NCBI GenBank assembly: GCA_024434165.1
Contig: QMIW01000017.1
Location: forward strand, 1 to 55,990
Direction: 5' to 3'
Source of the DNA: Chloroflexota bacterium
Lineage (GTDB): Bacteria > Chloroflexota > Anaerolineae > Anaerolineales > Villigracilaceae
Length of the DNA: 55,990 nucleotides
Shown here one piece after another: positions 5,037-54,357 of this stretch. The stretch's first letter is position 1, and every line of letters starts with the position of its first letter. The notes below the pieces were generated by a model. The model saw only the letters and a program-made list of their open reading frames with translations. It made no database searches and was not told the DNA's origin. The translations under genes and the position numbers were made by a program.

Positions 5037-5063
5037 GCCCGAATTGTAAAACAAAAAGGGCGC

Positions 5064-5438
5064 TTACAAGGTCTTGCTGCGTTCGTCAATGATGTTCTTT
5101 ATATCTTCGACGAGGCTGGGGTTTCCGGCGCGCCCGCCCTTGGGGAAGATGCCGAATATTTTGATGGGGAGATATACCACGCTGATTACGGCGTTGGTCA
5201 GCCCAAGCAGAGCGCCAAATGTGTACGGCATTGCCAGCGAAAGCATGACCGAAATGACCAGCACGGTGCCTGTCGCCATGATGATCTGCATGACATCCGC
5301 CCATCGGTAATTGCAATTGCGCTGGCGGGCGACGAAATAACCCAATCCGATATTTAGAAACGGTTGAATGAACAGACCAATCTCTGGCAGCCCCACGACC
5401 AGGGAAATGAGGATGTACAATCCAAGTACAAGGCACAT
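5064..5438 (-). CDS. Small membrane protein
   Basis: 124 aa, unrecognised. The start at 5438 has AAAGGAG five bases upstream. A longer frame reaching 5645 would run into the divergent response regulator and begins with non-membrane sequence. Three hydrophobic stretches (about 2-22, 26-35 and 45-85) suggest an integral membrane protein, followed by a short cytoplasmic tail rich in charged residues (GNPSLVEDIKNIIDERSK). It lies 27 bp upstream of the YqeC fusion gene on the same strand, so it could be the first gene of that operon. No function can be assigned. Confidence 0.7.
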   Translation of the reverse strand: MCLVLGLYILISLVVGLPEIGLFIQPFLNIGLGYFVARQRNCNYRWADVMQIIMATGTVLVISVMLSLAMPYTFGALLGLTNAVISVVYLPIKIFGIFPKGGRAGNPSLVEDIKNIIDERSKTL

Positions 5439-5601
5439 GCTGGCTCCTTTCGTGTGCCGGAATACCTTTTTTGGGGAGACCCGTCCCGAAACAAACTTCA
5501 AGACTCCGGGGATGCTGCAATGAAACCACATCCCTGTATTCTTCCCGAAGGACGTATAATAGAGGCGCTTATGACTGCGGCAGGATGGAAGGGCGCTGCG
5601 T

Positions 5602-6501
5602 ATGGATAAACCCATCGCTTTAATCGTTGAAGACGACCGCGACATCGTCGCCTTGTTCCGGCATGTGCTCGATATCGCCGGTTATCAGACCGAGATCGTG
5701 CTCGACGGCAGGGACGCGATGGACCGTCTCGGAATCCTGACGCCCAACATCGTCCTCCTCGATCTGCAGCTGCCGCGCCTCTCCGGGGTGGAAATCCTCA
5801 AGAACATGCGCGACGACGAGCGTCTGAAGCGCGTCCCGGTGGTGGTCATCACCGCCTATGCCCCCATTGCCGACAGCCTGCCTGTCGAACCGGACCTGCT
5901 CCTGCTCAAGCCGGTGGATATCAACCAACTCAGCAGTCTCGTCCAGCGATTGCAAGCCACGCAAGGCGCGCTCAACGAACCCGCCCACGACAAGGTAACG
6001 GGTTTGTATACTTTCTCCTTCTTCACCGTACGCCTTGCCTTCTCCCTCGAACGCATCAAACAAAGTTCCTTCCGCCGCTTCGGCGTGTTGTTTGCAGAAG
6101 TGCCCCAGTTCGCAGACCTCAAACACCAGCTTTCGTTGAACGAATTGAACAGTTTCATGCGCAAACTGGCAGACCAGTTCCGCCTCACGCTTCGCCCTAC
6201 GGACACAATGGCCTGGTCGCCGAACGATGGAGTCTTTCTCACGCTGATAGAAGAGATACCCAGCCCCGAGGCGCCCCTGCGCATCGCCGGGCGCATGCGG
6301 GACAGCATGAAGCGCTTCCTCGATATGAACGACACCGGGCTGGACCTGCGCGTGAACCTGGGCGTCCTGTTGTGCGACTCGGAATATGAAGACGCCCAGC
6401 AGGTGCTGAGGGACATCGAAACAGCCCGCGGACAACTGCGCGCGGGCATGTATACCAACCCCTCGATCTTCGACCGTGAAATGTTGAGAGCGCGCCGATA
6501 G
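5602..6501 (+). CDS. Response regulator with degenerate GGDEF-like output domain
   Basis: 299 aa. Residues 4-118 are a receiver domain with acidic pocket E10-D11-D12, phospho-acceptor D54 in LLDLQLP, T84 and K103. Residues 125-299 align with a GGDEF diguanylate cyclase. The start is marked by DKVTGLYTFSFF, comparable with the family's D-x-LTGLxNR-x-x-F, and the end by a VNLGVLL strand. Where the GGDEF loop should be, the sequence reads SPNDGVF, so cyclase activity is unlikely. It may bind a nucleotide or a partner instead. A TATAAT at 5555-5560 could be the -10 box. The gene is divergent from the small membrane protein gene and has no kinase beside it. Confidence 0.85.
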   Translation: MDKPIALIVEDDRDIVALFRHVLDIAGYQTEIVLDGRDAMDRLGILTPNIVLLDLQLPRLSGVEILKNMRDDERLKRVPVVVITAYAPIADSLPVEPDLLLLKPVDINQLSSLVQRLQATQGALNEPAHDKVTGLYTFSFFTVRLAFSLERIKQSSFRRFGVLFAEVPQFADLKHQLSLNELNSFMRKLADQFRLTLRPTDTMAWSPNDGVFLTLIEEIPSPEAPLRIAGRMRDSMKRFLDMNDTGLDLRVNLGVLLCDSEYEDAQQVLRDIETARGQLRAGMYTNPSIFDREMLRARR

Positions 6502-6508
6502 CGAACCA

Positions 6509-7297
6509 CTATGGAACGGCGTGCGCCAAAAGGCGCGGAAATTTCCTGAGAATCCTGCCGTAGATTTCGGGGGAAATCTCGTAAATGCGGCTTAAAATTT
6601 CCTCCACCTGTTCGGGGCTGGCATCTTTCTTGCGGCTCATCTCGATTTCGAGCCTTTCGAGGTCGTGCCCCAGGTTGTGGATTTGTTCTTCGGTCAGGTT
6701 TTCGTCCTTCCACATGGTTTCGTAGATCGTATCGAGGCGCGAGGTCATCTTCACGCCCTGCTCCGCCAGCCAGTCGTGGACGGCGGCGTACGCCGCCACC
6801 GAGGAAATACGCGGCAGGTTGTGCTTTCCGTGAATGGGGTCGGCGTCCGGCACGTCGCCGTGCACGCGCATCCAGCGCATTACACGCCGCATCTTGTCCG
6901 CCATCGCTTCACGCTGGTCGTCCTGCCATTGGATGTGTCCCGGCACGACGATGTCCTTCGTCATGCGGTAGACCTTTTCGAACGGCGGGGGGTCGGCGAT
7001 GACTTGCCTGCGAACATCCACCGGTTTGACCGCTCCCGCTTTTTTCTTTTCCTTTGATTTTCCGCCGCCAGTCTTTTTGCGTTCCCTCCCGCCTGCTCCT
7101 GCGCCCCCTGCTTTCTTCGTCTTTTGATACGCTCTCACGGCGCGCCTGCCTTCACCCTCCAATTGACCCTTCACCCAATCCACGACAAAATCCTCGATCT
7201 CGCTCTCGAATTTGTCCCGAATTCTTTCCGGCACCTCCTCGCGGTACCATTCCCTGAACCTGCACCAAATGCGGTTTCGTTGATAGTCGCAACTCAT
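6509..7297 (-). CDS. Protein of unknown function with basic linker
   Basis: 262 aa, not recognised. The start at 7297 has AAAGGAG six bases upstream. The N-terminal 60 residues are helical and rich in Arg, Glu and Trp. Residues 65-95 form a Gly/Lys-rich flexible linker with repeated KKAGG/KSKEKKK patches. The C-terminal 160 residues are helical with many charged residues, and residues 190-235 could form a coiled coil (EEQIHNLGHDLERLEIEM). No signal peptide or membrane segment is visible, so it is probably cytoplasmic. The basic linker could contact nucleic acid, but that is a guess. It converges with the response regulator gene, with 7 bp between their stops. Confidence 0.7.
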   Translation of the reverse strand: MSCDYQRNRIWCRFREWYREEVPERIRDKFESEIEDFVVDWVKGQLEGEGRRAVRAYQKTKKAGGAGAGGRERKKTGGGKSKEKKKAGAVKPVDVRRQVIADPPPFEKVYRMTKDIVVPGHIQWQDDQREAMADKMRRVMRWMRVHGDVPDADPIHGKHNLPRISSVAAYAAVHDWLAEQGVKMTSRLDTIYETMWKDENLTEEQIHNLGHDLERLEIEMSRKKDASPEQVEEILSRIYEISPEIYGRILRKFPRLLAHAVP

Positions 7298-7400
7298 GGC
7301 GTCTCCTTTCTGGTCCATCGTTGCACATTTTCATTATGGCACGACGCCGCATGAACTTCAATAAGCAGTACGGGAATTGGATTTGTTCTATCCGAAAAGA

Positions 7401-8207
7401 CTATGCCTTGAGGCGATCCTCGTGCAATTTGGCGAATACCGCTTCCAGCACGCCGCCCGCCACCGCCAGCGATTTATCCGAAACCAGGCGGCACAACTCC
7501 GGGTCGCTGCGTGCGTCCACGTCGCCGATCTTCATGCCCTCGGTCACTTCCACGCGCGGATGAATCAAGCCGCGCAGAACGCCGTTGAACGGGCTGACGA
7601 TCGCAGCATCGCCGACTTTTGCAATACGTTCTCCCTCCCTGCATGGATCCCCAATATCCTTGAACGGCTCTACGAACCCCGATGCGGGCGCCCTCAACAC
7701 GCGGCGCGGGTCGCCGTCGGGTGCGCGGCTGTCGGGTTGAGCCGCTCCCTGCCAGTGGACCCTGCCGAGGGTATGACTGCGGCGGGTTTCGATCACAGCG
7801 TGGCAGTTCTCGCCGGCGGTGAATCCGGGTCCAAGTCCGATATGAAGCGGGACCTCCAACGGCAAAGGTTCGGGTTCGGTCTTCAGCAGCCGCGCATCCA
7901 CTACAAAGGTCGAATGCGGGCTGGTCAAAAACTGGTTGCGGAGGATGTTCGCCTGCGGGTCAATCAGCACGGGGATTTCCCCCGCCTCCAACGTGACCTG
8001 GAGTTGGTCCGCCGAGACCAGGCGCGCCGTTACGCCCTCGACGGTCTGCTCGCCCTCATAGACCGCCTCTGAAAAGCAGACCGTGCGGCGCACGGCAAGC
8101 GGTTTATCCAATTCGAGGATGACCACCGGGAAGCCGACGCGGTGCAGCCGGAGCGCGACCCCGCTGGCGAGGTCGCCGCCGCCGCGAATGAGGATGAGGG
8201 GATTCAT
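7401..8207 (-). CDS. yqeB: YqeB/EF2563-family selenium-dependent molybdenum hydroxylase system protein
   Basis: 268 aa. It begins with a Rossmann-like strand-loop ILIRGGGDLASGVALRL (5-21), typical of the EF2563/YqeB family, whose members accompany selenium-dependent molybdenum hydroxylases. Later family blocks include GLGPGFTAG, GRVHWQGAAQPDS and a C-terminal VAGGVLEAV. The ATG at 8207 overlaps the stop of the DUF1361 gene (ATGA), so the two are translationally coupled. YqeB together with YqeC in one genome is the accepted marker pair for the labile-selenium cofactor of molybdenum hydroxylases. Here both lie within 4 kb of a hydroxylase locus on the same strand. The biochemical role of YqeB is not established. 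Confidence 0.9.
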   Translation of the reverse strand: MNPLILIRGGGDLASGVALRLHRVGFPVVILELDKPLAVRRTVCFSEAVYEGEQTVEGVTARLVSADQLQVTLEAGEIPVLIDPQANILRNQFLTSPHSTFVVDARLLKTEPEPLPLEVPLHIGLGPGFTAGENCHAVIETRRSHTLGRVHWQGAAQPDSRAPDGDPRRVLRAPASGFVEPFKDIGDPCREGERIAKVGDAAIVSPFNGVLRGLIHPRVEVTEGMKIGDVDARSDPELCRLVSDKSLAVAGGVLEAVFAKLHEDRLKA

Positions 8208-8914
8208 GAAATTTCCTGTGGGGCTTTATTTGTCTGTTCCTGCAATAATAACCCGAAAGTATATGTGCTGACATAAATGAAAATGAACAGCGCGGAAAAA
8301 ACGCTGATGAACACAATGGATTGCAGGCTGGGGTTGGCGGCGTAATGCAGGAACTCCGCCAGCCGCTGCTTCGGGCTCAGGAGCAGGTCCCACGAATTCC
8401 AGCGCAGGAAGCGCCCAATGTAAATGCCGAGCGCACCCAATACGCCCACCGTGCCGACGAAGAGCCAGCCTGCGATGCGCCCAAACTCGCGGCGCACGAT
8501 GCTCTGCATCAGAAATAGGGAAACCATGCCCAGCGACAAGCCCGTCCATGCAAACCACAAAAGGAGGAGTACGTCAAACCAAAGCGGGATATGCGGTTTG
8601 GGGTCGCTGAGGTGCAGGAGGTCGGTCAGGATGTAAGGCGCGTTGGGGAAGAAAATCAGCCAGAGTCCGGCGGCGAAGGGCAGGGTCAGCAGGATGGATT
8701 TCCGGCTCCAGGAAAACGCAGTGGCGGCGTATGCCAGCCCAAGCGGAATCCACGCCAGGAAGATGTTCCAGACGAGAAAGGCATACTCGCCTGAGCCGCT
8801 CATCCTTACCCGCAGGCGGAACAACATCAGGGAGAGCAGGGTCGCTCCGCACAACTGGGCAAAGATTGTCAGGCGGAACCTGTAAGGTTGGATGTATTTG
8901 TAAAGGGTTTTCAT
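8204..8914 (-). CDS. DUF1361 membrane protein (copy 1)
   Basis: 236 aa. The start at 8914 has GGAGG eight bases upstream. Six or seven hydrophobic segments make this an integral membrane protein. The conserved stretch around FLVWNIFLAWIPLGLAY, and FFPNAPYILTDLLHL followed by IPLWFD, are DUF1361 signatures. The function of the family is unknown. A close paralogue is the neighbouring gene at 8992-9753; both share the IWN/VWN-FLAWIP block and the YIGRF-R-NSWD block. Its stop overlaps the start of yqeB. The pair may be partners in a heteromeric membrane complex, which is an inference from tandem duplication only. Confidence 0.85.
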   Translation of the reverse strand: MKTLYKYIQPYRFRLTIFAQLCGATLLSLMLFRLRVRMSGSGEYAFLVWNIFLAWIPLGLAYAATAFSWSRKSILLTLPFAAGLWLIFFPNAPYILTDLLHLSDPKPHIPLWFDVLLLLWFAWTGLSLGMVSLFLMQSIVRREFGRIAGWLFVGTVGVLGALGIYIGRFLRWNSWDLLLSPKQRLAEFLHYAANPSLQSIVFISVFSALFIFIYVSTYTFGLLLQEQTNKAPQEIS

Positions 8915-8991
8915 TTGGATGCCTCCGTTGTCCAGCAGATTGTAAACTGCCCGGCTTTCAAAGGCTTGCAATGACTCGCGGGTTTCGATTC

Positions 8992-9753
8992 TCAGCCTTT
9001 CCCTGGATTGACCTGGGAGGGCTGGGTGCTGGCGAGTTGTTCCGGCGTGCTTTGCGCGCGGCTCGTCTGCTCCTGGAGCATGTGACTGAACGAATAAAGC
9101 AGGAGGTACACGAACAGGAAGAAGAAGGTGTAAAGGATTGTGAACGCCGCAAGCCGCATGCTTGGGTCAACGACGATGCCGAGGATTTCAAAGGCGGTTT
9201 CCGCCGGGTCTTGCAGGATATCCCACGAGTTCAGGCGCACGAAACGTCCGATGTAAATCCCGAAACTGCTTGCCGCGGAGATGACGAAAACGAATACCCA
9301 GCCAACCCAACGCCCAAAGGTGCGCGCGACGATATCCTGCATGAGATAGAGCGAGATCACGCCCAGGAGCGTCCCGGTCCACGAATTCCAGCCGACGATG
9401 ATGACGTCGTACCAGAGCGGCGCGCCGTACCCGCCGGAACGGGCAAGGTCCTGCAGGTCAGTGAGCATGTAGGGCGCATTCGGAAAGAAGATCAGCCACA
9501 GGAAGGCGATGACCGGGATGACGAGATACAGCCAGATGCGCCGCCACGAAACGGCGTGCGCCACATAGGCGAGGATGAAGGGAATCCAGGCGAGGAACAG
9601 GTTCCAGATCAAGCCGGCGTGACGGGTCGAATCGGTGTACGCCACGCGCGCCAGCACCAGCAGAATGCAGACCAGACAGGCGAGGTTGAGCAGGACAAAG
9701 ACGGCAAGGTTGTGCCGGTTTCGATAGACGAAGTTTTTCAGCCGGTTATACAT
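8992..9753 (-). CDS. DUF1361 membrane protein (copy 2)
   Basis: 253 aa paralogue of the downstream DUF1361 gene. It has the same segments: a first TM near 16-37, then IWNLFLAWIPFILAY, FFPNAPYMLTDLQDL and YIGRFVRLNSWD. It differs mainly in a longer C-terminal tail of Ser/Gln/Pro-rich sequence after residue 225. The ATG at 9753 lies 3 bp after the stop of the DinB-like gene, so both belong to one operon with the hydrolase, DinB, DUF1361 and yqeB genes. The role is unknown. Confidence 0.85.
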   Translation of the reverse strand: MYNRLKNFVYRNRHNLAVFVLLNLACLVCILLVLARVAYTDSTRHAGLIWNLFLAWIPFILAYVAHAVSWRRIWLYLVIPVIAFLWLIFFPNAPYMLTDLQDLARSGGYGAPLWYDVIIVGWNSWTGTLLGVISLYLMQDIVARTFGRWVGWVFVFVISAASSFGIYIGRFVRLNSWDILQDPAETAFEILGIVVDPSMRLAAFTILYTFFFLFVYLLLYSFSHMLQEQTSRAQSTPEQLASTQPSQVNPGKG

Positions 9754-9756
9754 GAT

Positions 9757-10248
9757 TTATCGGGAGCGCAGGTAAACGATGAGATCAACATCGCCGGGGG
9801 AGTGCCCAAGCGCGGTGAGCATGGCGGCGGCTTCGGCGCGGTGCTGAGTCCCGTGATTGATCAGGTGCGCCATCACATGCCAGAGGATATCCTCTTTGGG
9901 GTCTCCGCGCGTGGTCTTGTAATGGAAGATGGAGTTGAGGCGTTCGTCGGTCACCGCAGCGGCGAATTCGCTCAAGGACCGGTCTTCTTCCTGCAAACGT
10001 GCGCGGAGCGAATCGAACGTTGGAAAATCCTCCGGCTTGATCCACACGCTCGGCGAATCGCCCTCCCAGCGTTTGCGCCAGATCCACTCGGCGAAGAGAA
10101 TGTGAGTCAGCGTGCCGCGCAGCCCTCCGTGAGGATACGCCGCATCGGCGAGGAACTGCTCCGGGGTCAGGTTCGAGGCGGCGGCGAGGATTTTTTCGTT
10201 TGCCCACCGGTTGTATTGATAGAGAAGTTGGATGTCTTCCTTGTTCAT
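9757..10248 (-). CDS. DinB-family protein
   Basis: 163 aa four-helix bundle protein. DinB/YfiT-like proteins bind a divalent metal through three histidines and often act as thiol-dependent S-transferases, for example with bacillithiol or mycothiol. The likely ligands here are H49 (in LTHILFAEW), H132 and H136 (in NHGTQHR); extra histidines stand at 124 and 128. The ATG overlaps the stop of the upstream alpha/beta hydrolase gene (ATGA), and the DUF1361 gene begins 3 bp after its end. The thiol cofactor and substrate cannot be told from sequence. Confidence 0.88.
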   Translation of the reverse strand: MNKEDIQLLYQYNRWANEKILAAASNLTPEQFLADAAYPHGGLRGTLTHILFAEWIWRKRWEGDSPSVWIKPEDFPTFDSLRARLQEEDRSLSEFAAAVTDERLNSIFHYKTTRGDPKEDILWHVMAHLINHGTQHRAEAAAMLTALGHSPGDVDLIVYLRSR

Positions 10249-11129
10249 GATGACTGCCTTTTCAGAAACTCCAGCAAAATCGGGTTGACTTCACCGGGCT
10301 TTTCGTAGTGAGGGATATGACCGCAGTTCTCGATCACGTGGAATTCTGCGTGGGGGATGGCGTCGAGAATATCCGCGCTGTGCTCGAACGGGACGGTGGT
10401 ATCCTGCCTGCCCCAAAAGAGCAGGGTGGGTTTTTTTAGTGCGCCAACCCGCCGGTATGTGCCGGCGAACGAACCCAGCATGCCGGTGCGCATCGTGGAA
10501 AGGATGGCGCGCTTGAAGCCCCGGTACTGCATCTGGATTTTGTACCTCGCCTGGAATTCCTTCACCAGCTGCGGCGTGAACAGATCCGCTGCGATGCCCT
10601 TCACCAGGTTTGCGCTTCCGAACAGACCGAAGAACAGTTCGCCAGCCACCGGCATGGTCACCGCTTTGAGCAGCGGCGAAAGAGGGATTGCCTTCGCCCC
10701 GGCGGGGTCTATCAAAACGTGCCTGGCGACGCGGTCGGGATATTTATCAACGAATGAAGCCGTAATGGGTCCGCCCATCGAAAGCCCGACCAGGTTCACC
10801 TGCTTGAAATCCAGCGCGTCCAGCAGTTCTTTCAACTGGCGCACGAACAGATGAACATCGTAGCGGACGGGCGGTCTATCCGAGTAGCCGCGCCCAAACA
10901 GGTCGTAGCGCAGGACGCGAAACCCCTGCCTGCATAGAAAGTCGAACGTGGGGTCGTAGATGAAATACGGCACGGAGAACCCGTGAACCAGTACCACGGA
11001 AATCCCGTTTTCGCCTCCGCCGGTTTCATAGTGGGTGACGCCGTCTGAAAGCGCGACGAACGCCCCGTCCGCTTCCCGGCGGGCGGCTTGATCCATTTGC
11101 CTGGTTTCATCCAGATAGGGGAATGGCAT
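10245..11129 (-). CDS. Alpha/beta hydrolase
   Basis: 294 aa with the start at 11129. An ATG at 11159 is an alternative, but it lies inside a palindromic repeat. The oxyanion-hole HGF sits near residue 49. The nucleophile elbow GLSMGG places Ser117, Asp243 lies in GRQDTTVP, and His271 in ENCGHIPHYEKP, completing a Ser-Asp-His triad. The spacing and the cap region (150-220) are typical of C-C hydrolases, esterases and haloperoxidase-like enzymes, so the substrate is open. It is the first gene of the hydrolase-DinB-DUF1361-DUF1361-yqeB run. Confidence 0.87.
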   Translation of the reverse strand: MPFPYLDETRQMDQAARREADGAFVALSDGVTHYETGGGENGISVVLVHGFSVPYFIYDPTFDFLCRQGFRVLRYDLFGRGYSDRPPVRYDVHLFVRQLKELLDALDFKQVNLVGLSMGGPITASFVDKYPDRVARHVLIDPAGAKAIPLSPLLKAVTMPVAGELFFGLFGSANLVKGIAADLFTPQLVKEFQARYKIQMQYRGFKRAILSTMRTGMLGSFAGTYRRVGALKKPTLLFWGRQDTTVPFEHSADILDAIPHAEFHVIENCGHIPHYEKPGEVNPILLEFLKRQSS

Positions 11130-11143
11130 GGTTGACGAAAGAC

Positions 11144-11215
11144 GTACCGCAAAACTCATTTTGCTTCCCGCCTGCGGCGCAAGACAGATGCCGCGCAAGA
11201 TGAATCTTGCGGTAC
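11144..11215. repeat. REP-like palindrome, GTACCGCAA family (copy 1)
   Basis: A 72 bp element bounded by the inverted repeat GTACCGCAA / TTGCGGTAC, with an internal CAAGATGAATCTTG palindrome. It occupies the gap between the molybdenum hydroxylase gene and the hydrolase gene. Related copies are at 20174-20225 and 55722-55822. Confidence 0.7.
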
Positions 11216-11221
11216 GAAATG

Positions 11222-13414
11222 TTACTTGATTTTGCCGAGCGCCCTTAACACGCGCTCGGGCGTAAAGGGAAACTCGTTGATCCACACACCGGTGGCGTCA
11301 TGGATGGCGGCGGCAATGACGGCGGCGACCGGCAGGTAGGGCAGTTCGCCCATGCCGCGCGCCCCCCATGGTCCGTTCGGGTCCGGCACTTCGACCACCA
11401 CCGAATCCACTTTTTCGGGAATATCCCAAACGGTGGGAATGAGATAGGTGCTGAGCTGGTCGGTCAGCACGCGCCCGTCTTTTGTCTTGAATTCTTCCAG
11501 CACGGCGTACCCATGCGCCTGCACGATTGCGCCTTCGATCTGCCCGACCACCAGGTCTGGGTTGATGGCTTTGCCCACGTCGTCGGCGGAGGTGATGCGG
11601 AGCACGCGCACGTGACCGGTCTCGGTATCCACTTCCACTTCCGCGGCTTGCGCCACATACGCATACTGGAAGTTGGGCATGGAATAGCCGGTTTCCTTGT
11701 CCATCGGAGTGGTGGGCGGGGCGAAATACGAAAACTCCGCCACCGCGGGGCGCTCTTCGGCTTTCCATTTTTCGAGCGCCTGTTCCGCCGCGCCTCGAAC
11801 CGCGTTGCCTGCCATGAACGTCAGGCGCGAAGCGGATGCCGAACCGGGGTTTCCCTGCGTGGCAGAATCCGAGGTGCGCAATTCGATCATCCCAACCGGC
11901 ACGTTCAACACTTCCGCCGCCATTTGTGAGATGACCGTGTGAAAGCCCTGACCGACTTCCGCCCCGGCGTGATGCAGGACGACCCGTTCGATGTTCCCGT
12001 TGCCGTGAATTTCCACCTTCGCCCAGCAGTTCTCCTTGTAGCCAAACGAGAAGCCGACGTTTTTAAAGCCAGCCGCAAAACCCCGCCCGCGGACAACCGC
12101 GCCTTGCGGTTGGCGTTTCGCCCTTTTGCCAGCCTTCCTCCAATTGAACGAATCGCGCGCGGCTTCGATGCACTCGGCGATGCTCACCGGGTTGGGGGCG
12201 GGCGTGCCCACGCCCAGCGTATCGCCGTTCTTGAGCGCGTTCTTCAAACGGAACTCCACCGGGTCCATGCCGAGTTTTTCGGCGAGTTTATTCATCTGGC
12301 TTTCCGCCATGAACAGGGCTTGCGGCGCGCCGAACCCGCGGAACGCCGCGCCCGGCACATTGTTGGTGTACACGCCGTACACATCCGTTTTGACGTTGGG
12401 GATGTAATACGGTCCTGTGGATGTAATGGCGGAGTTGCCAAGCACCTTGTTGGTGGTGTACATGTATGCGCCGCCGTCGCCGATGATCTCGTTTTCGGCG
12501 GCGACCAGCTTGCCCTCTTTGGTTGCGCCCCATCTGGCTTTCAGAATCACGGCGTGGCGTTTGCCGTGTCCGATGATCGATTCGCGGCGCGACCAGACGA
12601 TCTTCACCGGCCGCTTCAATTTCATCGCCGCCAGCGCAAGGACGATTTGCACCGAGAGGTCTTCGCGCCCGCCGAAGGCGCCCCCAATGGCAGGATAGAT
12701 TACGCGCACCTGTTCTTCGGGCAGATCCAGCGCGTGGGCAATGGATTTGCGGTCCGCATGAGTCCACTGACCGGCGCTCTCGACCACAACGCGCCCTTCT
12801 TCGTCAAGGTATGCCAGCCCCGCTTCGGGCTGCAAATAAGCGTGTTCCTGCACCGGCGTGCGATACTCTTCCTCCACGATCGCGTCCGCCTGGGCGAAGC
12901 CTTCATCCACATTCCCTTTGCGGATTTTGTAATGGACGCAGATGTTCGAGTCGCCCCGGTCCGGGTGGAGGCGGGGCGCATCGGGACGCATCGCAATGAC
13001 CGGGTCCAGAAGAGGCGGAAGGTCTTCATAATCCACCTCGATCAATTTCAGCGCCGCATTCGCCTGGACCTCGGACTCTGCGACGACAACCGCAACCTGA
13101 TCCCCCACGAAGCGGACGATGTCGGTGTACGGCTTGCCTGCTCCCGGTCCGCACAAGACCGGCTGGTCGGGAATCTGCAAACCGTATTCGTTGACCGGAA
13201 CATCCTTTGCCGTGTACACCGCAACGACGCCGGGCGAGGCAAGCGCTTTGTCAATGCGGATATCCTTCACCCTTGCGTGCGGGCGCTCCGCAAAGAGGAT
13301 TTTCATGAACAGCATGCCGGGTTTGGTCAGGTCGCCGGAGTACAGCGTTTCGCCGGTGACTTTGCCGCGCGCATCCACGCGCGATTGGGAGGTTCCAATG
13401 GAATGGTCGGACAT
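11222..13414 (-). CDS. Molybdenum hydroxylase large subunit (xanthine dehydrogenase family)
   Basis: 730 aa, the molybdopterin-binding subunit. It hydroxylates a heterocycle or aldehyde with water at a Mo centre. Seen in order: the a/b hammerhead (15-125), the GGAFGGRED molybdopterin motif, AFRGFGAPQ (the substrate-pocket loop), GAEVGQG, and the C-terminal GARGMGE with catalytic Glu690. EHAYLQPE around 190 matches the region of the second pocket glutamate in xanthine dehydrogenases. It lies 6 bp after the small membrane protein gene, which in turn follows the fused FAD/2Fe-2S subunit, so the holoenzyme is encoded here. YqeB, YqeC and MocA-like genes nearby suggest a selenium-containing cofactor. 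The substrate (purine, nicotinate or other) is not determined. Confidence 0.92.
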   Translation of the reverse strand: MSDHSIGTSQSRVDARGKVTGETLYSGDLTKPGMLFMKILFAERPHARVKDIRIDKALASPGVVAVYTAKDVPVNEYGLQIPDQPVLCGPGAGKPYTDIVRFVGDQVAVVVAESEVQANAALKLIEVDYEDLPPLLDPVIAMRPDAPRLHPDRGDSNICVHYKIRKGNVDEGFAQADAIVEEEYRTPVQEHAYLQPEAGLAYLDEEGRVVVESAGQWTHADRKSIAHALDLPEEQVRVIYPAIGGAFGGREDLSVQIVLALAAMKLKRPVKIVWSRRESIIGHGKRHAVILKARWGATKEGKLVAAENEIIGDGGAYMYTTNKVLGNSAITSTGPYYIPNVKTDVYGVYTNNVPGAAFRGFGAPQALFMAESQMNKLAEKLGMDPVEFRLKNALKNGDTLGVGTPAPNPVSIAECIEAARDSFNWRKAGKRAKRQPQGAVVRGRGFAAGFKNVGFSFGYKENCWAKVEIHGNGNIERVVLHHAGAEVGQGFHTVISQMAAEVLNVPVGMIELRTSDSATQGNPGSASASRLTFMAGNAVRGAAEQALEKWKAEERPAVAEFSYFAPPTTPMDKETGYSMPNFQYAYVAQAAEVEVDTETGHVRVLRITSADDVGKAINPDLVVGQIEGAIVQAHGYAVLEEFKTKDGRVLTDQLSTYLIPTVWDIPEKVDSVVVEVPDPNGPWGARGMGELPYLPVAAVIAAAIHDATGVWINEFPFTPERVLRALGKIK

Positions 13415-13420
13415 GGCTTC

Positions 13421-13843
13421 CTATCGTTTGTATCGTTTCACCTTGATGTTGGGCGGCGGCACGTCGAGCGGACCATAGCGCGACGGGGTCATGATCCCAT
13501 GGATGAATGCGTACACCACGGAAATGATTCCGCTCAGCAGCACCACATAAATGAAGGACATGGCTGCATAGGCGTAAAAGTTCGCAGTGTTGGTGACGGG
13601 AGCGAGCAAAGACATCAAGCCGCTCGAACGATAAAAGAAATCCGGGTAGCGCGGCGTCCCCAGCAATTGATAGGGGATCGCCCAGTTGTTGTCGAGACCG
13701 AACTTGATGGTCTCGACGCCCGCCACGATGGAAATGGCGGGGATGATGAGCATCATCAAGCAGCCAATGCCGCGCCACGCATAATGGGGCTCGCGGCGCT
13801 TCTCCTTGCCTCGCTTTACCACTGAACTTTGATATTTGCTCAT
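13421..13843 (-). CDS. Small membrane protein between hydroxylase subunits
   Basis: 140 aa, not recognised. A basic N-terminus (residues 1-20) precedes hydrophobic segments at about 25-45 and 88-115, and the C-terminus is basic with Pro residues (PPPNIKVKRYKR). Most of the loop between the segments is polar with aromatic residues. It lies 9 bp after the FAD/2Fe-2S gene and 6 bp before the Mo subunit gene. This is an unusual place for a membrane protein and could tether the hydroxylase to the membrane. That role is inferred from position only. Confidence 0.7.
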   Translation of the reverse strand: MSKYQSSVVKRGKEKRREPHYAWRGIGCLMMLIIPAISIVAGVETIKFGLDNNWAIPYQLLGTPRYPDFFYRSSGLMSLLAPVTNTANFYAYAAMSFIYVVLLSGIISVVYAFIHGIMTPSRYGPLDVPPPNIKVKRYKR

Positions 13844-13852
13844 TTCAGAACC

Positions 13853-15280
13853 TCAGGATTGGGATTTTGCGGCTTCTTCGATGGCTTGGACGATCTTGTA
13901 ATAACCCGTGCAGCGGCACAGGTTGCCGGTGATGGCTTGCTCGACTTCGTGCTTTGTTGGGTTGGCTTTTTCCTCGAGCAGTTTCGCGCCGGACATGATA
14001 AAGCCGGGGATGCAGTACCCGCATTGCACAGCGCCGTGCTCGATGAATTTTTTCTGTACGGGATGGAGCCTCCCCTCTCCTGAAGGAGAGGGGCTGGGAG
14101 TGAGGTCAGCCAGTCCCTCCACGGTGACGATCTCCGCACCGTGTGCACGGGGCGCCGGCACTAGGCAGGACATGACCGCCTGCCCATCCAAAAAGATGGT
14201 GCATGCGCCGCATTCGCCTTCGGCGCAGCCTTCTTTTGTGCCAGTCAACATGCCCTCTTCGCGCAGAAGCCGGAGCAGGGTTTTGTCGAATCCATTATGG
14301 AAAGTGTATTTCTTTCCGTTGATGGTGGTTTCGATGGGGGATTCGGGGAATTTTGAATTTTGAATTCTGAATTCTGAATTTGTCCTCAACAGGATCGGCT
14401 TCTTTGGCATGCCCGCCTGTTCCTCGCCATCGCGGATGGCGGTCAGCCCGCGGCGGGTGATGACGCGCACCATTTCACTGCGATAGGCTGCCGAGCCGCG
14501 CACGTCGTCTATGGGTTTTGCCGATTTCACCGCGAGGTTCGCAGCTTCGGCGATGTTCTTATCGTTGAGTTTTTTGCCCGCCAGGAACTTTTCCGCTTTG
14601 GAGGCATGTGTGATGATGGGGGTCACTGCTCCCAGTGTGATCGAGGCTGATTTGACGGTATCCCCTTTGAGGTCCAGGATGATCGCGGCGTTGACGAGGG
14701 AGATCGCCTGGGCGCGGCGTAAAGCCAGTTTGATGAAGGTCCCGCGCTGCGATTTGGTCATCGCCGGGAACGAAATGTCCACCAGCAGTTCGTCCGGTTC
14801 CATCACGGTCTTGCGGACGCCGGTATAGAATTTTTTGAGCGGGACGACGCGCGTCTTCCCCGCCGAGACCAGCGTGACTTTGGCGCCCAGCGCCATCAGC
14901 GGGGTGATGGTGTCGTTGGCGGGCGAGGCGGTGATCAGGTTGCCGGCGATCGTACCGCGGTTGCGGATTTGCGGCGCGCCCACTTCCCACGCGGCGCGCG
15001 CCAGTGGATAGGCACGCGCCCGGATGAGTTTGGAGGCGGCGCAGTCGTTGTGCGTGACCAGCGCGCCGAGATGGATGACGTCGTCCTCGTCAATTGTGAT
15101 TTGGGTCAGTTGGGGGATGCGCGTGACATCAATGAGGGTCTCGATGCCTTTGCGGACTCCGCGCTCGAGTTCGAGGATGAGGTCGGTGCCTCCGGCGACC
15201 ACGCGGGCGCGTTCCCGTTTTTCCGCAAGGATGCGGAGGACCTCTTCAATGGATGTTGCGTTGATGTATTCGTGCCACAT
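13853..15280 (-). CDS. Fused FAD-binding and 2Fe-2S subunit of molybdenum hydroxylase
   Basis: 475 aa. Residues 1-280 form a CoxM-type FAD domain: AGGTDL near the N-terminus, then RNRGTIAGNLITASPAND for FAD binding. Residues 315-475 form a CoxS-type protein with the plant-type cluster CAEGECGAC...C and the second cluster CGYC...CRC. These relay electrons from Mo to FAD and are normally two separate genes. The linker (NSEFRIQNSKF) is translated from AATTC-rich repeat DNA at 14347-14384. A second insertion (TPSPSPSGEGRL) between the two cluster domains comes from a CCCTCTCC palindrome at 14068-14109. I start at ATG 15280, because the ATG at 15298 belongs to a palindromic repeat; neither has a clear ribosome binding site. 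Confidence 0.88.
   Translation of the reverse strand: MWHEYINATSIEEVLRILAEKRERARVVAGGTDLILELERGVRKGIETLIDVTRIPQLTQITIDEDDVIHLGALVTHNDCAASKLIRARAYPLARAAWEVGAPQIRNRGTIAGNLITASPANDTITPLMALGAKVTLVSAGKTRVVPLKKFYTGVRKTVMEPDELLVDISFPAMTKSQRGTFIKLALRRAQAISLVNAAIILDLKGDTVKSASITLGAVTPIITHASKAEKFLAGKKLNDKNIAEAANLAVKSAKPIDDVRGSAAYRSEMVRVITRRGLTAIRDGEEQAGMPKKPILLRTNSEFRIQNSKFPESPIETTINGKKYTFHNGFDKTLLRLLREEGMLTGTKEGCAEGECGACTIFLDGQAVMSCLVPAPRAHGAEIVTVEGLADLTPSPSPSGEGRLHPVQKKFIEHGAVQCGYCIPGFIMSGAKLLEEKANPTKHEVEQAITGNLCRCTGYYKIVQAIEEAAKSQS
14068..14109. repeat. CCCTCTCC palindrome inserted in frame in the 2Fe-2S domain
   Basis: The stem CCCCTCTCC / GGAGAGGGG with a 4 nt loop, followed by a GGGAGTGAGGTC tail, is the same type of sequence seen in the MITE cores and at 34432-34494. 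Here it is translated as TPSPSPSGEGRL in the loop before LHPVQ. The surrounding protein keeps all cluster cysteines, so the insertion seems tolerated. Confidence 0.7.
14347..14384. repeat. AATTC short tandem repeat at the domain junction
   Basis: A run of degenerate GAATTTT / GAATTCT heptamers (about five units) lies exactly at the junction of the FAD and 2Fe-2S domains and is translated as NSEFRIQNSKF. Such heptamer runs are normally intergenic, which suggests the junction was once a gap between two genes. Confidence 0.65.
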
Positions 15281-15293
15281 ATGGTTTGGCAGT

Positions 15294-15374
15294 GTCATTG
15301 CGAGGCGAAGCCGAAGCAATCTCCTGTTGACTGGGAGATTGCTTCGCTCCTTTCAGCCGCTCGCAATGACATAA
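15294..15374. repeat. TCATTGCGAGG palindromic repeat (copy 1)
   Basis: An inverted repeat starts GTCATTGCGAGG and ends CTCGCAATGACA, with internal AAGCAATCTCC / GGAGATTGCTT arms. It fills the gap upstream of the fused hydroxylase subunit gene. A related but more diverged copy lies directly before ffh at 54252-54357. Confidence 0.75.
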
Positions 15375-49078: not shown

Positions 49079-49235
49079 TGCACAGGTATGCAAGTAAACA
49101 AGTACACAGAGTACACAGGTAAACAATCCGTTCCTGTTTACCTGTGTACGTGTTTACCTGTTCACCTATTCACCTGTCTACCTGTGTACCTGTCTACTTT
49201 ACTTGTGTACCTGTTTACCTATTCTACCTGTCTAC
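49079..49235. repeat. Degenerate TACCTGTT tandem repeat with inverted half
   Basis: About 100 bases made of variants of an 8 to 9 bp unit (TACCTGTK, with CACCTATT and TACTTGTG forms), preceded by the complement (ACAGGTAAACA, AAGTACACAG). The whole can fold back on itself. It lies directly after the stop of the dehydrogenase gene and reaches its last codon. It has no spacers of constant length, so it is not CRISPR. Confidence 0.7.
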
Positions 49236-50806
49236 TTGATCAGCGTGCGGATCTGCTCGTGCATGTACAACGGCAGGTAGTAGTGACCGCCGGCGTTCTT
49301 GCCGCTGGAGCCGGAACCTTTCCATCCGCCAAACGGCTGGAAGCCGGGCCACGCGCCGGTCGTTGCGCCCTGCGGGCGGTTGGCGTACGTCACACCGGCT
49401 TCGATCTTGTCGAAGAACCATTCGACCTCTTCCGCCGAGCCATAGAAACCGGCGGTGAGACCGTAGTTCACATCGTTGGCGATCTGCATGGCTTCGTCGA
49501 GGTTCTTGACCTTGCCGATGGTGGTGATGGGCAGGAACATTTCATATTTCCACAGGCGGTGCGAGTAGGGCAGGTCGGTCGCAAAGGTGTTTTCGCAGTA
49601 ATAGCCTTTGTCATACATGCCGCCGGTGCGAACCTTGCCGCCCGTCAGGAATCTGCCGCCGCCCTGGTGAATCTCTTCGCAGAAGTTCTTGAAGTCGTTG
49701 TAGGACGACTTGTTGATGACGGGTCCGTTGTAGGTGGCGCGCTCGGTCGGGTCGCCGAGGACCAGCTTCTCGGTGGTTTCCTTCAGGCGCGCAATCAGTT
49801 CATCGTAGACAGGCTCCTCCACCAGCACGCGCGAAGCGGCGGAGCACTTCTGTCCCTGCAAGCCAAACGCCGAGCGGACGATGCCGATGGTGGCGCGTTC
49901 CAGGTCTGCGTTCTTTGAAACGATGGCGGGATTCTTTCCGCCCAGTTCCAGAATGATCGGGCGCACATAATTGCGCCTGGCAAAGTCCTGGAACATCTTC
50001 ATGCCCACATCAAAGGAACCGGTAAAGGTCGCGCCGTCCACTTCGGGGCTGTCCACCAGTGCCTGCCCAAGCGTGGAGCCGGGACCGGTCACGAAATTGA
50101 CCACGCCGTCGGGGATGCCCGCATCGCGGAAGCAATCCACCAGCAGACGGACGATCCAAGCCGTGTCGGTGGCGGGTTTGATGACGATGGTATTGCCGGT
50201 GGCGAGCGCCGCGCCCGCCGGTCCGCCGGTGAGCGCGAACGGGAAGTTGAACGGCGAAACCACCAGCCACACGCCGTACGGTCTCAGCACCGAAACGTTG
50301 CGCGCCTCGTATCCAACCAGCGGGTCCTTGCCCATCTCCACAACATAACCGTCGTTCTTTTCCATTTGGTAGCACGAATAATAAATAAGGTCGGCGGTCT
50401 CCTGCACGTCGCCCAGCGACTCCATGCGGTTCTTGCCGACCTCCAGCGCCATTGCCGCGCCCAACTCGAAAATGCGTTCCTCGATCAACGCAGCCGCCTT
50501 GCGCAGCAGTTCCACGCGCTTCTGCCAGGGTGTGCGGCTCCACATCGGGAAGGCTTTGCGCGCCGCCGCCAGCGCATCCTGGGCGTGTTTGGCGTTCCCC
50601 TTCTGCATGGTTGCCAGCACCCAGTCCACATTGACCGGGGAGCGGTCTTCGAACTTCTCGTCTGCCTGCACCTCCCTGCCGTTGATGAGCATGGTGTATT
50701 CCGTGCCCATGCTGCTCTTGAGTTTCTCCACCGCTTTGTCGAAGCCGGCATGAAGCTCCTCAGGCGGATTGAACATTGTTGCGTATGTGAGTTTGAAATC
50801 TGCCAT
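49232..50806 (-). CDS. L-glutamate gamma-semialdehyde dehydrogenase-like enzyme
   Basis: 524 aa aldehyde dehydrogenase. The start at 50806 has AAAGGAG upstream. Catalytic Cys321 (GQKCSAAS), general base Glu287 (LELGGKNP), SPFNFPFA and the FTGSFDVG NAD loop fit the P5C dehydrogenase (PruA/RocA) subgroup, which oxidises glutamate semialdehyde from proline to glutamate using NAD. No proline dehydrogenase is in the window, so the substrate assignment rests on subgroup likeness. It stands alone. Confidence 0.88.
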   Translation of the reverse strand: MADFKLTYATMFNPPEELHAGFDKAVEKLKSSMGTEYTMLINGREVQADEKFEDRSPVNVDWVLATMQKGNAKHAQDALAAARKAFPMWSRTPWQKRVELLRKAAALIEERIFELGAAMALEVGKNRMESLGDVQETADLIYYSCYQMEKNDGYVVEMGKDPLVGYEARNVSVLRPYGVWLVVSPFNFPFALTGGPAGAALATGNTIVIKPATDTAWIVRLLVDCFRDAGIPDGVVNFVTGPGSTLGQALVDSPEVDGATFTGSFDVGMKMFQDFARRNYVRPIILELGGKNPAIVSKNADLERATIGIVRSAFGLQGQKCSAASRVLVEEPVYDELIARLKETTEKLVLGDPTERATYNGPVINKSSYNDFKNFCEEIHQGGGRFLTGGKVRTGGMYDKGYYCENTFATDLPYSHRLWKYEMFLPITTIGKVKNLDEAMQIANDVNYGLTAGFYGSAEEVEWFFDKIEAGVTYANRPQGATTGAWPGFQPFGGWKGSGSSGKNAGGHYYLPLYMHEQIRTLIK

Positions 50807-50963
50807 AGTGTTCTCCTTTTGGAATTTGTGAGACAAACTACAAAACAAGTATAGCGTAGGATTTCAAGCCCGTCAAAGTTAACGTCGTTTAAGGGCGCAG
50901 ACGATGTCCGTAAGATGGCAGGGTCGAAGGGTATCAATATTCCATACAAAGAGGAGAATTTCG

Positions 50964-51500
50964 ATGAAACCCCGCTTCATTTTCTGGACATTCAACCTGG
51001 TCGCTGTTATTCTGACGGCTTCCTGCGCCCCCGCCGCTGTGACGGAGCCGCCCGCCGCCGCAGCCACCATCCCAGTGGAGCAATCCACCTCGACGGCGGC
51101 GCCAACTCCCCTGACAGAATCAACCGCCGCCGTCACGGATGCGCCCACAATCCAGCCGATCGCCACCTCTCGTGGACCAAGCCTCGAAGCCACCGATCCC
51201 TCCACCGTTTCGCTGGCGTCCGGTCAACTGCAGCTGGTGGAATTCTTCCGCTTCACCTGAGGTACCTGCCGCACCATGGCGCCCATGGTTCATGGGCTCG
51301 AAGCAGAGTATTTTGGCAGAGTCAAGTTCACCTACCTCGATGCCGACGACCCTCAAACGCAAGCCTTGCAGCGCGAACTGGGTTTTGTGTACCAGCCCGA
51401 ATTCTACCTGCTCGATGCAAACGGAAACGTCCTCAAGAAATTGATAGGGTTCGTTTCCGAAGAGGAATTCCGAAATCTGTTTGACCAATATCTTCAGTAA
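50964..51500 (+). CDS. Thioredoxin-like selenoprotein lipoprotein (TGA read as Sec)
   Basis: 178 aa if the TGA at 51258-51260 is read as selenocysteine (Sec99). The start at 50964 has GAGGAG upstream. A signal peptide with lipobox LTASC (Cys21) predicts a lipoprotein on the outer face of the membrane, followed by a Thr/Ala linker (25-85). The domain then runs LVEFFRFT-U-GTC-R-T-MAPMVHGLEAEY, VKFTYLDADDP, and FYLLDANGNVLKKLIGF, which matches thioredoxin folds: Sec99-x-x-Cys102 replaces CxxC. The frame stays open for 78 codons after the TGA. A 7 bp hairpin follows the TGA at the right distance for a bacterial SECIS. A gene caller would split it at 51260. A nonsense mutation is the alternative. 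Confidence 0.85.
51268..51297 (+). promoter_or_regulatory. Candidate bacterial SECIS hairpin
   Basis: ACCATGG (51273-51279) pairs perfectly with CCATGGT (51283-51289) around a 3 nt loop CGC; the loop begins 20 nt after the TGA and has G at its second position. A short lower GCC/GGC stem (51268-51270 and 51295-51297) may extend it. Known bacterial SECIS elements place a small loop with an early G about 16-37 nt after the UGA, so this fits. Folding was judged by eye. Confidence 0.75.
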
Positions 51501-51517: not shown

Positions 51518-51549
51518 GAAAACGACCCGCCGTTCGGCGGGTCGTTTTC
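51518..51549 (+). terminator. Intrinsic terminator of the selenoprotein gene
   Basis: GAAAACGACCCGCC / GGCGGGTCGTTTTC perfect 14 bp stem with a GTTC loop; the symmetric A and T tails would let it work in both directions. Confidence 0.92.
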
Positions 51550-52731: not shown

Positions 52732-54090
52732 TTAACCGCCGTTGAATTTTTTGGCGTCCGCTATCGCTTTGTTGACGTTTACGAATGGGAGGATGATCAG
52801 CCCCATGATGAAGAAGAAGATCAGCGAAAGGATGCCCACCCGCAAGTCGTTGAAGATCTGGTTGGCGAGCCCGAATACCAGCGGACCGATCCAGGACGTG
52901 CCGCGCTCGGATACTTCGTAGAACGCAAAGAATTCCGCCTCCTTGCCGTTCGGGATCATCTGCGCAAACAGGCTGCGGCTGATGGCTTGCGAACCGCCCA
53001 TCACCAGGGCGATGAACGCGCCCAGGATGAAAAATTCCAAAGTTACATTCCCGCCTCTCAGACCGCCGTAAGCGTAAATAACCACGCCCGCCCAGATCAC
53101 CAGGCTGACGATGATGGACTGCTTGGCGCCAATCCATTTTGCCAGCCTGCCCCAGAACAGCGCGCCGAAGAACGCCATGAACTGGATCATCAAAATAACG
53201 GAAGTGAGCGTCGTTTGGTCCTGCTCCAGCCCGCCCTGGAGGACGGGCGCGGCGGCAAAGGTCGCGGCGACTGCGATCACCGTCTGAATGCCGTCGTTGT
53301 AAAGGAAGTACGCCAGCAAAAATCTCAATGTTTCCGGGAAGTGCTTCACTTCGCTGAATGTCTTTTTCAACTGTTTGAAGCCGATGCTGACATACGTCTC
53401 CCCGGAGGGTAGCGTCCGTGCCGCGTGGCGCGGACGCAGCCGCGCCCAGGTGATGAGGGCAAAGCCCAGCCACCACAGCCCCGCCGATGCAAGATTGATC
53501 CTCACAGCAAGTTCGGTGGAAATACCAAACGGCTCGCGCAATTGAAAAAACGCCAGGTTGAGTGCCAGCAGGATGCCGCCCCCCATGTAACCCATTGCCC
53601 AGCCGTAGGATGACACCCGGTCGCGCTCCTCTTCGCTGGCGATATCCGGCAGGTAGGCGTTGTAAAACACCATCGCTGCCCCAAAGGAAAGATTGGCGGC
53701 GATGAACAGCAGCCCGCCCAGCCACCATAGCCCGCCGGTGACGAGGAACAGCAAAAGGGTCGCCAGTGCACCGATGGTTGCAAAGATTTGCATCATGCGT
53801 TTTCGCAGGCGCGAGTAATCGGCAACCGCTCCGAGGATGGGCAGGAACAAAACCTGCATCCCGACGGAAAAGGAAATGCAGTAGGGCAAAAACGAATCAG
53901 GCGCAACGGGGATTCCAAAAAACGAAACGGTTGTCGTCCCTGCCGCTTCCGCCGCCGTGCGCGCCAGGCTTGCCACGTACGGACCCAAAAACACGGTCCC
54001 CACCGTGGTGCTGAAGGCGGAATTCGCCCAATCGTACATCGCCCAGCCAAAGATTTCCTTCCTGTCGTTCACCATCGCTTCGGTTGCCAT
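52732..54090 (-). CDS. MFS transporter, Atg22/UMF1-like
   Basis: 452 aa. The start at 54090 has GGAGG upstream; the longer frame runs into repeat DNA. About 12 TM segments. The opening IFGWAMYDWANSAFSTTV is the family hallmark, and LPDIASEEERDRVSSYGWAMGYMGGG and MGGSQAISRSLFAQMIPNGKEAEFFAFYEV are the conserved Atg22-like loops. Members are thought to export amino acids or other small solutes. Substrate unknown. Confidence 0.9.
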   Translation of the reverse strand: MATEAMVNDRKEIFGWAMYDWANSAFSTTVGTVFLGPYVASLARTAAEAAGTTTVSFFGIPVAPDSFLPYCISFSVGMQVLFLPILGAVADYSRLRKRMMQIFATIGALATLLLFLVTGGLWWLGGLLFIAANLSFGAAMVFYNAYLPDIASEEERDRVSSYGWAMGYMGGGILLALNLAFFQLREPFGISTELAVRINLASAGLWWLGFALITWARLRPRHAARTLPSGETYVSIGFKQLKKTFSEVKHFPETLRFLLAYFLYNDGIQTVIAVAATFAAAPVLQGGLEQDQTTLTSVILMIQFMAFFGALFWGRLAKWIGAKQSIIVSLVIWAGVVIYAYGGLRGGNVTLEFFILGAFIALVMGGSQAISRSLFAQMIPNGKEAEFFAFYEVSERGTSWIGPLVFGLANQIFNDLRVGILSLIFFFIMGLIILPFVNVNKAIADAKKFNGG

Positions 54091-54251
54091 GGCTCCTCCG
54101 TTGATTCTCAGAATGTCGTAAGCAGGAACACGTGCCAGTATAAGGAGTTTCGACTCCGCTGTAAAGAAATTACGGATGGAACTCCCCGCCTCTTTCTTGA
54201 CCCGCAACCTGCTCCGCGCTACAATGCCTTTTCCTACCCTTAGCCTTTCCG

Positions 54252-54357
54252 TCGTTGCGAGGAGCCCAAAGGGCGACGAAGCAGCCTCCCTGTTGCAAGG
54301 GGATGGTGCCGCCACGGCGCCGCGCGACGCTGCAGGCTAACGCCCTCGCAATGACAG
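54252..54357. repeat. GTTGCGAGG palindromic repeat (copy 2)
   Basis: Starts CGTTGCGAGGAGC and ends CCCTCGCAATGACAGG, with GAAGCAGCCTCC and GCCGCCACGGCG in between. It is related to the element at 15294-15374 but longer and diverged. It stops just before the ffh start codon and supplies the sequence containing its ribosome binding site. Confidence 0.7.

Follow-up and report, generated by a model that had tools for sequence, protein, structure and literature searches.

A predicted selenocysteine-containing thioredoxin lipoprotein of Anaerolineae and the RNA hairpin behind its UGA codon

Is an in-frame TGA, reached 98 codons into a short lipoprotein gene of a Chloroflexota bacterium from the Villigracilaceae, the end of that gene or a codon for selenocysteine (Sec)? 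The gene lies in a stretch of 55,990 nucleotides (contig QMIW01000017.1 of assembly GCA_024434165.1), referred to here as the window, and a sequence-only reading of this DNA had proposed that the TGA is translated. Elsewhere TGA serves as an ordinary stop, ending 11 of the 27 open reading frames in the window that were taken as genes. The explanation that best accounts for the observations as a whole, and which we hold with near certainty, is that the gene encodes a selenoprotein, a thioredoxin with a predicted lipid anchor, whose UGA is recoded through SelB and a downstream hairpin.

The gene and its predicted product

A single frame, preceded by a ribosome-binding-site-like AGGAG, runs from ATG 50964 through a lipoprotein signal into FFRFT-TGA and on to a TAA at 51498–51500, with no other TGA along its length (Table 1). 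This arrangement is as the sequence-only reading described it, except that it counted 78 codons after the TGA, where there are 79 sense codons between TGA and TAA. Decoded as Sec, the TGA gives a protein of 178 residues with U99 in the motif FFRFT-U-G-T-C-R-T-M-A-P. The terminator that had been placed after the gene stands only in part: there is a strong 14-bp hairpin downstream of the stop codon, but U residues sit within its stem, and a terminator scan reported no site there despite the strong fold.

Table 1. Features of the selenocysteine-encoding locus, in window coordinates
Feature	Position	Strand	Basis
Divergent aldehyde dehydrogenase gene (context only)	49232..50848	-	gene order in relatives
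AGGAG, ribosome-binding-site-like, 7 nt 5' of ATG	50952..50956	+	sequence
CDS of predicted Sec-containing thioredoxin lipoprotein, 178 aa	50964..51500	+	frame, Pfam match, homologues
Predicted signal peptide ending in lipobox VILTASC; predicted lipidated Cys21 at 51024-51026	50964..51026	+	sequence pattern
Pro/Ala/Thr-rich linker joining anchor to domain	51027..51182	+	sequence
Thioredoxin domain	51183..51497	+	PF00085, AlphaFold2 model, PDB fold match
In-frame TGA, read as Sec99, first position of UxxC (UGTC)	51258..51260	+	frame and orthologues
TGC, Cys102, second residue of UxxC pair	51267..51269	+	frame and orthologues
Putative bSECIS hairpin, 7 bp, loop GUU, 20 nt after TGA	51281..51297	+	fold, covariation, synonymous null
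14-bp hairpin 3' of stop codon, possible terminator	51518..51549	+	-27.4 kcal/mol, z -6.98

With Cys substituted for Sec, residues 87–171 match the Pfam thioredoxin family PF00085 (E 1e-9, 38.7 bits against a gathering score of 23.5), and this match, together with the codons of orthologues, bears out the placing of the TGA at the first Cys of the thioredoxin CxxC motif. An AlphaFold2 model of the 104-residue domain has a mean pLDDT of 95.4, and the first PDB match to the predicted fold is S. aureus thioredoxin (TM 0.85). Four thioredoxin-type NCBIfam models match at E ≤1e-5, all under their cut-offs, and no selenoprotein model matches at that threshold. For the thioredoxin equivalog TIGR01068 the score is 40.2 bits against a cut-off of 96.8, and the protein is thus not an ordinary TrxA. 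Export and lipidation at Cys21 are predicted from the N-terminal sequence. When a signal-plus-lipobox pattern was scored on 146 distinct rows having at least 50 residues before the Sec site, its strict form fitted 124 of them (0.9 expected with shuffled residues) and a loose form 138.

Conservation of the TGA codon and of the hairpin behind it

A search of 150 genomes of the family at E ≤1e-8 gave a match in 96, of which 95 are strong and one, in genome G040, is weak; all 95 strong matches contain a TGA within the match, that of G105 being split by a run of N. From these 95 genomes 76 orthologues were fetched, every one of which has the TGA at the same codon, and in most of them the frame ends 79–80 codons past it. 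A further 14 weaker matches (L099–L112), eight with TGA and six with a Cys codon, were treated as paralogues and excluded from the counts, although 11 of them were used in the tree discussed below. These include thioredoxin-like paralogues with a TGA at the same place, in the contexts YADWU (L099, L102, L103 and L105) and FFSGTU (L110), as well as a QSPYU group with both Sec forms (L104, L111 and L112) and Cys forms (L108 and L109).

A scan of one genome per species yielded 105 related loci, of which 80 were kept. To judge from their titles these 80 are all from Chloroflexota, 79 with TGA and one, L190, with TGT, and these counts are to be read knowing that many of the loci come from genomes already in the family search and that, of the two scan patterns, one ends in Cys and favours Cys forms, the other, VHGLEA[EK]Y, spans the hairpin and is biased towards Sec forms. 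Across the class, 53 of 298 genomes match at 1e-16, and in a sample of the phylum the matching genomes (14 of 301) all lie inside the class Anaerolineae. The class-wide set of 206 loci contains 58 duplicates, leaving 148 distinct sequences, of which 138 have TGA and 10 a Cys codon. At the second position of the pair, 136 of the 138 distinct TGA rows have a Cys codon and two have TGA. The latter two, the class relatives L237 (genome G352) and L250 (genome G245), have the motifs UPTU and USTU, and their thioredoxins may carry two selenocysteines.

Gene order around the locus is partly conserved. Upstream, 48 of 80 loci have an aldehyde dehydrogenase gene (with an identity of only 30% in one of them), some of the loci without it being cut off early, and a gene like that at 52732–54315, labelled MFS, is found downstream in 27 of the 80. 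A functional link with the aldehyde dehydrogenase was considered and set aside, since the conserved gene order could not be developed into a functional claim.

The source genome is a draft (4.4 Mb in 173 contigs, 98% complete), in which a TGA might arise as a sequencing error, from a miscalled Cys or Trp codon, or mark a pseudogene with a nonsense mutation, but the same TGA in independent genomes, 76 of 76 fetched family orthologues and 138 of 148 class-wide sequences, refutes this, as do the continuing frame and the covarying hairpin; its probability is negligible, and the assembly error that the sequence-only reading had itself raised is excluded.

The hairpin, GCCCAUG-GUU-CAUGGGC, has the 7 bp that had been claimed for it and starts within the 20–22 nt range given, but its loop is GUU (or G-GUU-C) and not CGC. 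According to the available part of a 2026 review (PMC13188914), the bacterial SECIS (bSECIS) model has an apical loop of 3–9 nt, an upper stem of 4–16 bp, a G in the first two loop positions, 16–37 nt from the UGA to the apical loop and a free energy of −7.5 kcal/mol or lower. Here a stem of 7 bp carries a 3-nt loop, the distance from UGA to apical loop is 27 nt (51261–51287) and the free energy is −11.3 kcal/mol. The loop in the window begins with G, and a G falls within the first two loop positions in all 138 distinct TGA rows. At the gathering threshold Rfam has no match in the window and no family there that covers the hairpin. The 21-nt hairpin has an energy z-score of −3.36, and longer stretches fold no better than shuffles (−1.32 for 66 nt, −0.21 for 45 nt and −0.53 for 41 nt); because these latter scores are weak, the case for a SECIS rests on comparison.

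That comparison was made at two levels. In the family alignment of 75 rows, from which L096 was left out for its Ns, 96.2% of cells pair against 93.1 in shuffles, and 19 cells are changed on both sides against 2.8, a value that none of 500 shuffles reached; counted as pairs, three are changed on both sides against 1.5, with 10 of 500 shuffles as high. The innermost pair fails in 16 of the 75 rows and the outermost in four. Given no structure, RNAalifold recovers the five core pairs and, ahead of them, also a short stem of four nearly invariant pairs. Across the class, the five core pairs of the 138 distinct TGA rows give 690 cells, of which 687 are paired; under synonymous recoding of the same residues the number is 476 (sd 9.7), and the highest of 1000 draws reached 509. 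The full set of five is intact in 135 rows, compared with 13.4 expected from the recoding, and each of the other three rows has a single core pair broken. The stem-loop occurs in 42 variants, such as CCTGTG/CACAGG, CCTACC/CGTAGG and CCGTCC/CGACGG.

Could the hairpin arise simply as a by-product of protein conservation, in the segment MAPMVHGLE, with the UGA decoded in some other way such as near-cognate readthrough? The stem does lie over this part of helix 1, which is conserved, and two of the seven pairs are invariant in the family. The shortfall of pairs under synonymous recoding nevertheless argues strongly against such an origin, and so does the choice of codons within the stem: its Gly codon is GGG in 69 of the 75 rows with Gly there, compared with 93 of the 467 Gly codons found in other parts of the domains, and a matching change in the partner codon accompanies six of eight Pro-to-Ser replacements and 12 of 13 A-to-G changes at the Met/Val/Ile codon. 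Pairing is also weaker among homologues with Cys. The ten Cys-codon rows (L190, L218 and L225–L232) form 28 of 50 core pairs, slightly more than their synonymous null of 21.8 (sd 2.5), with five pairs in L229, four each in L218 and L230, three in L228 and two in each of the remaining six. We therefore regard an origin as by-product as very improbable. The behaviour of the hairpin supports its being a bacterial SECIS selected as RNA, and in its covariation and its fit to the published model it bears out the identity first suggested for it.

Decoding machinery and cysteine homologues

If the UGA is to be read as Sec, the organism must be able to decode it, and all four genes that the sequence-only reading named for a search of the genome (selA, selB, selC and selD) are present. 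The scores are 327.6 bits for selB (cut-off 242.25), 544 bits for selA and 367.7 bits for selD, and a single tRNA-Sec lies over the gathering score at 67 bits, with UCA at the anticodon position. This tRNA sits on a different contig, ARAGORN having found no tRNA within the window or beside selB. The selD frame holds a TGA of its own (L018 2398–2400, minus strand) in the context AGUASK, which fits the UxxK motif given for Sec-SelD in the available part of the 2026 review (PMC13188914); the SelD of this genome is thus probably itself a selenoprotein. The machinery, the conserved TGA codon and the covarying bSECIS-like hairpin together support the original proposal of Sec, and for a UGA read as sense, with Sec inserted at U99 via SelB and the bSECIS, the support is as strong as sequence data can give.

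Two other genes had been cited in favour of this reading, yqeC (3714–5054) and yqeB (7401–8207), which we take to belong to the selenium-cofactor trait. Both are indeed in the window, but they lie 43–46 kb away and concern a different use of selenium, and we reject them as evidence for this gene. Over window positions 3714–15319, YqeC is fused to a molybdenum-cofactor cytidylyltransferase-like domain, and YqeB is accompanied by xanthine-dehydrogenase-like subunits whose FAD and iron–sulfur parts share one frame. The region is apparently the selenium-cofactor trait, a second selenium use in the source genome.

Homologues with Cys at residue 99, for which a search had been suggested, do exist within the class. 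They have the same domain as the Sec gene and differ from it in the Cys codon at the Sec position and in the weaker hairpin; all except L190 and L218 are distant relatives. In L190 the hairpin and the residues that it encodes are both altered (VHGL to VMNY). In L229 (genome G380), L218 (G429) and L230 (G434) most core pairs are still formed, and selA is not over the cut-off in these genomes; their hairpins are apparent relics of Sec-to-Cys changes.

The distribution of selA follows that of the TGA codon closely. Of the 53 class genomes with a match, nine are family members, each with selA, and were excluded; among the 44 that remain, with a homologue outside the family, selA is over the cut-off in 36 of 37 TGA genomes versus one of seven Cys genomes (Fisher p 7e-6, with kinship ignored). 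The exceptions are a TGA genome, G390 (91% complete), that has no selA over the cut-off, and a Cys genome, G375, that has it. Five extra genomes outside the 44 all have selA, including the Cys genome G150 that carries L190, so that the Cys form does not require the loss of selA. A tree of 122 rows, 11 of them paralogues, implies at least 10 changes between Sec and Cys, eight of which are forced by well-supported branches, although a short alignment and the meeting of several long branches make the placements uncertain. In an underpowered comparison of six independent Sec/Cys pairs, about 4.9 on average are concordant with selA and none is discordant (p about 0.06). Within the family selA is found in 143 of 150 genomes and the thioredoxin in 96, implying that the thioredoxin gene is not what keeps the Sec trait.

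In known bacterial selenoproteins Sec insertion and termination are in competition, and some of the product here could be a short protein of 98 residues. Were that short form functional, the UGA would let selenium decide whether a bare lipoprotein or the full thioredoxin is made. We consider this unlikely, given that only the signal, a linker of low complexity and the domain's first strand precede the UGA, with no function of their own that can be recognised.

Predicted function and relation to known Sec proteins

How might such a protein be made and used? With the UGA read as Sec, SelB carrying Sec-tRNA(UCA) would bind the hairpin just past the UGA, and the ribosome would insert Sec at residue 99 rather than terminate. 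The product would then be exported, lipidated on Cys21 and tethered to the outer face of the membrane via a flexible linker of ∼50 residues. There the Sec99/Cys102 pair (UGTC) would carry out thiol-disulfide (selenol-selenenylsulfide) exchange, and could be re-reduced through a membrane carrier of the CcdA/DsbD type. The source genome has two CcdA/DsbD_TM matches over the cut-off, one of them beside a gene for a CxxC lipoprotein, and it thus probably encodes a means of carrying reducing power across the membrane. The neighbour in question (L255 761–1420, directly upstream of the DsbD_TM gene at 1498–2169) is labelled a TlpA-like lipoprotein from its sequence, with the motif AVWCSKC. It shares a lipoprotein-like start and a CxxC motif with the protein described here and differs in having Cys rather than Sec and in its sequence.

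Judged by its fold and UxxC motif, the protein most likely serves to reduce disulfides or oxidants outside the cytoplasm. A role at the cell surface as a DsbA-like oxidant, or as a peroxidase, is the most serious competitor, since UxxC is found in Trx and in DsbA/DsbG-like selenoproteins alike, according to the available part of the 2026 review (PMC13188914). The domain is, however, nearest to classical thioredoxins by both sequence and fold, and CcdA/DsbD-type carriers are encoded; an oxidant or peroxidase is accordingly a minority prospect, though a substantial one, and a reductase is clearly favoured over an oxidase.

The available parts of the 2026 review (PMC13188914) and of a 2022 review (PMC9312934) list Sec-thioredoxin (Trx, PF00085, UxxC) among the experimentally verified selenoproteins, and in the part available of a 2006 survey (PMC1794560) a thioredoxin row bears the figure 7. 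By its domain, the TGA at its CxxC motif and its predicted fold, the gene is a member of this established family, and a bSECIS behind the UGA is to be expected of all such genes. Compared with known Sec-thioredoxins by domain and UxxC, the branch described here appears to differ in its predicted export and in a predicted lipid anchor joined to the domain by a long linker; it was found only in one Chloroflexota class, and the protein falls below the TIGR01068 cut-off. The Sec-containing thiol:disulfide interchange, DsbG-like, DsbA-like and TlpA-like (UGC) proteins are likewise redox proteins of thioredoxin fold with UxxC or UGC, but as far as the available part of the 2026 review goes (PMC13188914) they are filed under PF13098, NF041057, PF01323 and cd02966, whereas the present protein matches PF00085 best.

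For Anaerolineales, the available part of a 2016 single-cell paper (PMC4959059) reports Sec formate dehydrogenases and a Sec translation factor, and the word thioredoxin is absent from that text. Among the literature matches listed, with most subscription papers outside their coverage, there is no description of a lipoprotein Sec-thioredoxin of Chloroflexota. The new elements are thus the predicted lipid anchor, the presence of Sec, as read from the codon, in every family orthologue checked, and the trace that the RNA signal appears to have left on the protein sequence.

A broader picture, which we put forward tentatively and at somewhat less than even chances, is that these proteins form a clade of surface lipoprotein thioredoxins in which one family can in effect no longer do without Sec, and in which the sequence of helix 1 is dictated by the RNA signal. 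Changes in helix 1 would then be confined to those that preserve the hairpin, a constraint that would be lifted upon a change from Sec to Cys, often accompanied by loss of the decoding genes, while two lineages may have gone on to a UxxU diselenide.

The prediction of an extracytoplasmic selenoprotein raises the question of why a protein in that location needs selenium. Gene calling that treats TGA as a stop splits the gene in two, and a conserved redox protein has therefore likely been overlooked in many Anaerolineae genomes. The lineage also offers a natural experiment for following what an RNA signal costs a protein in sequence and how Sec decoding is lost.
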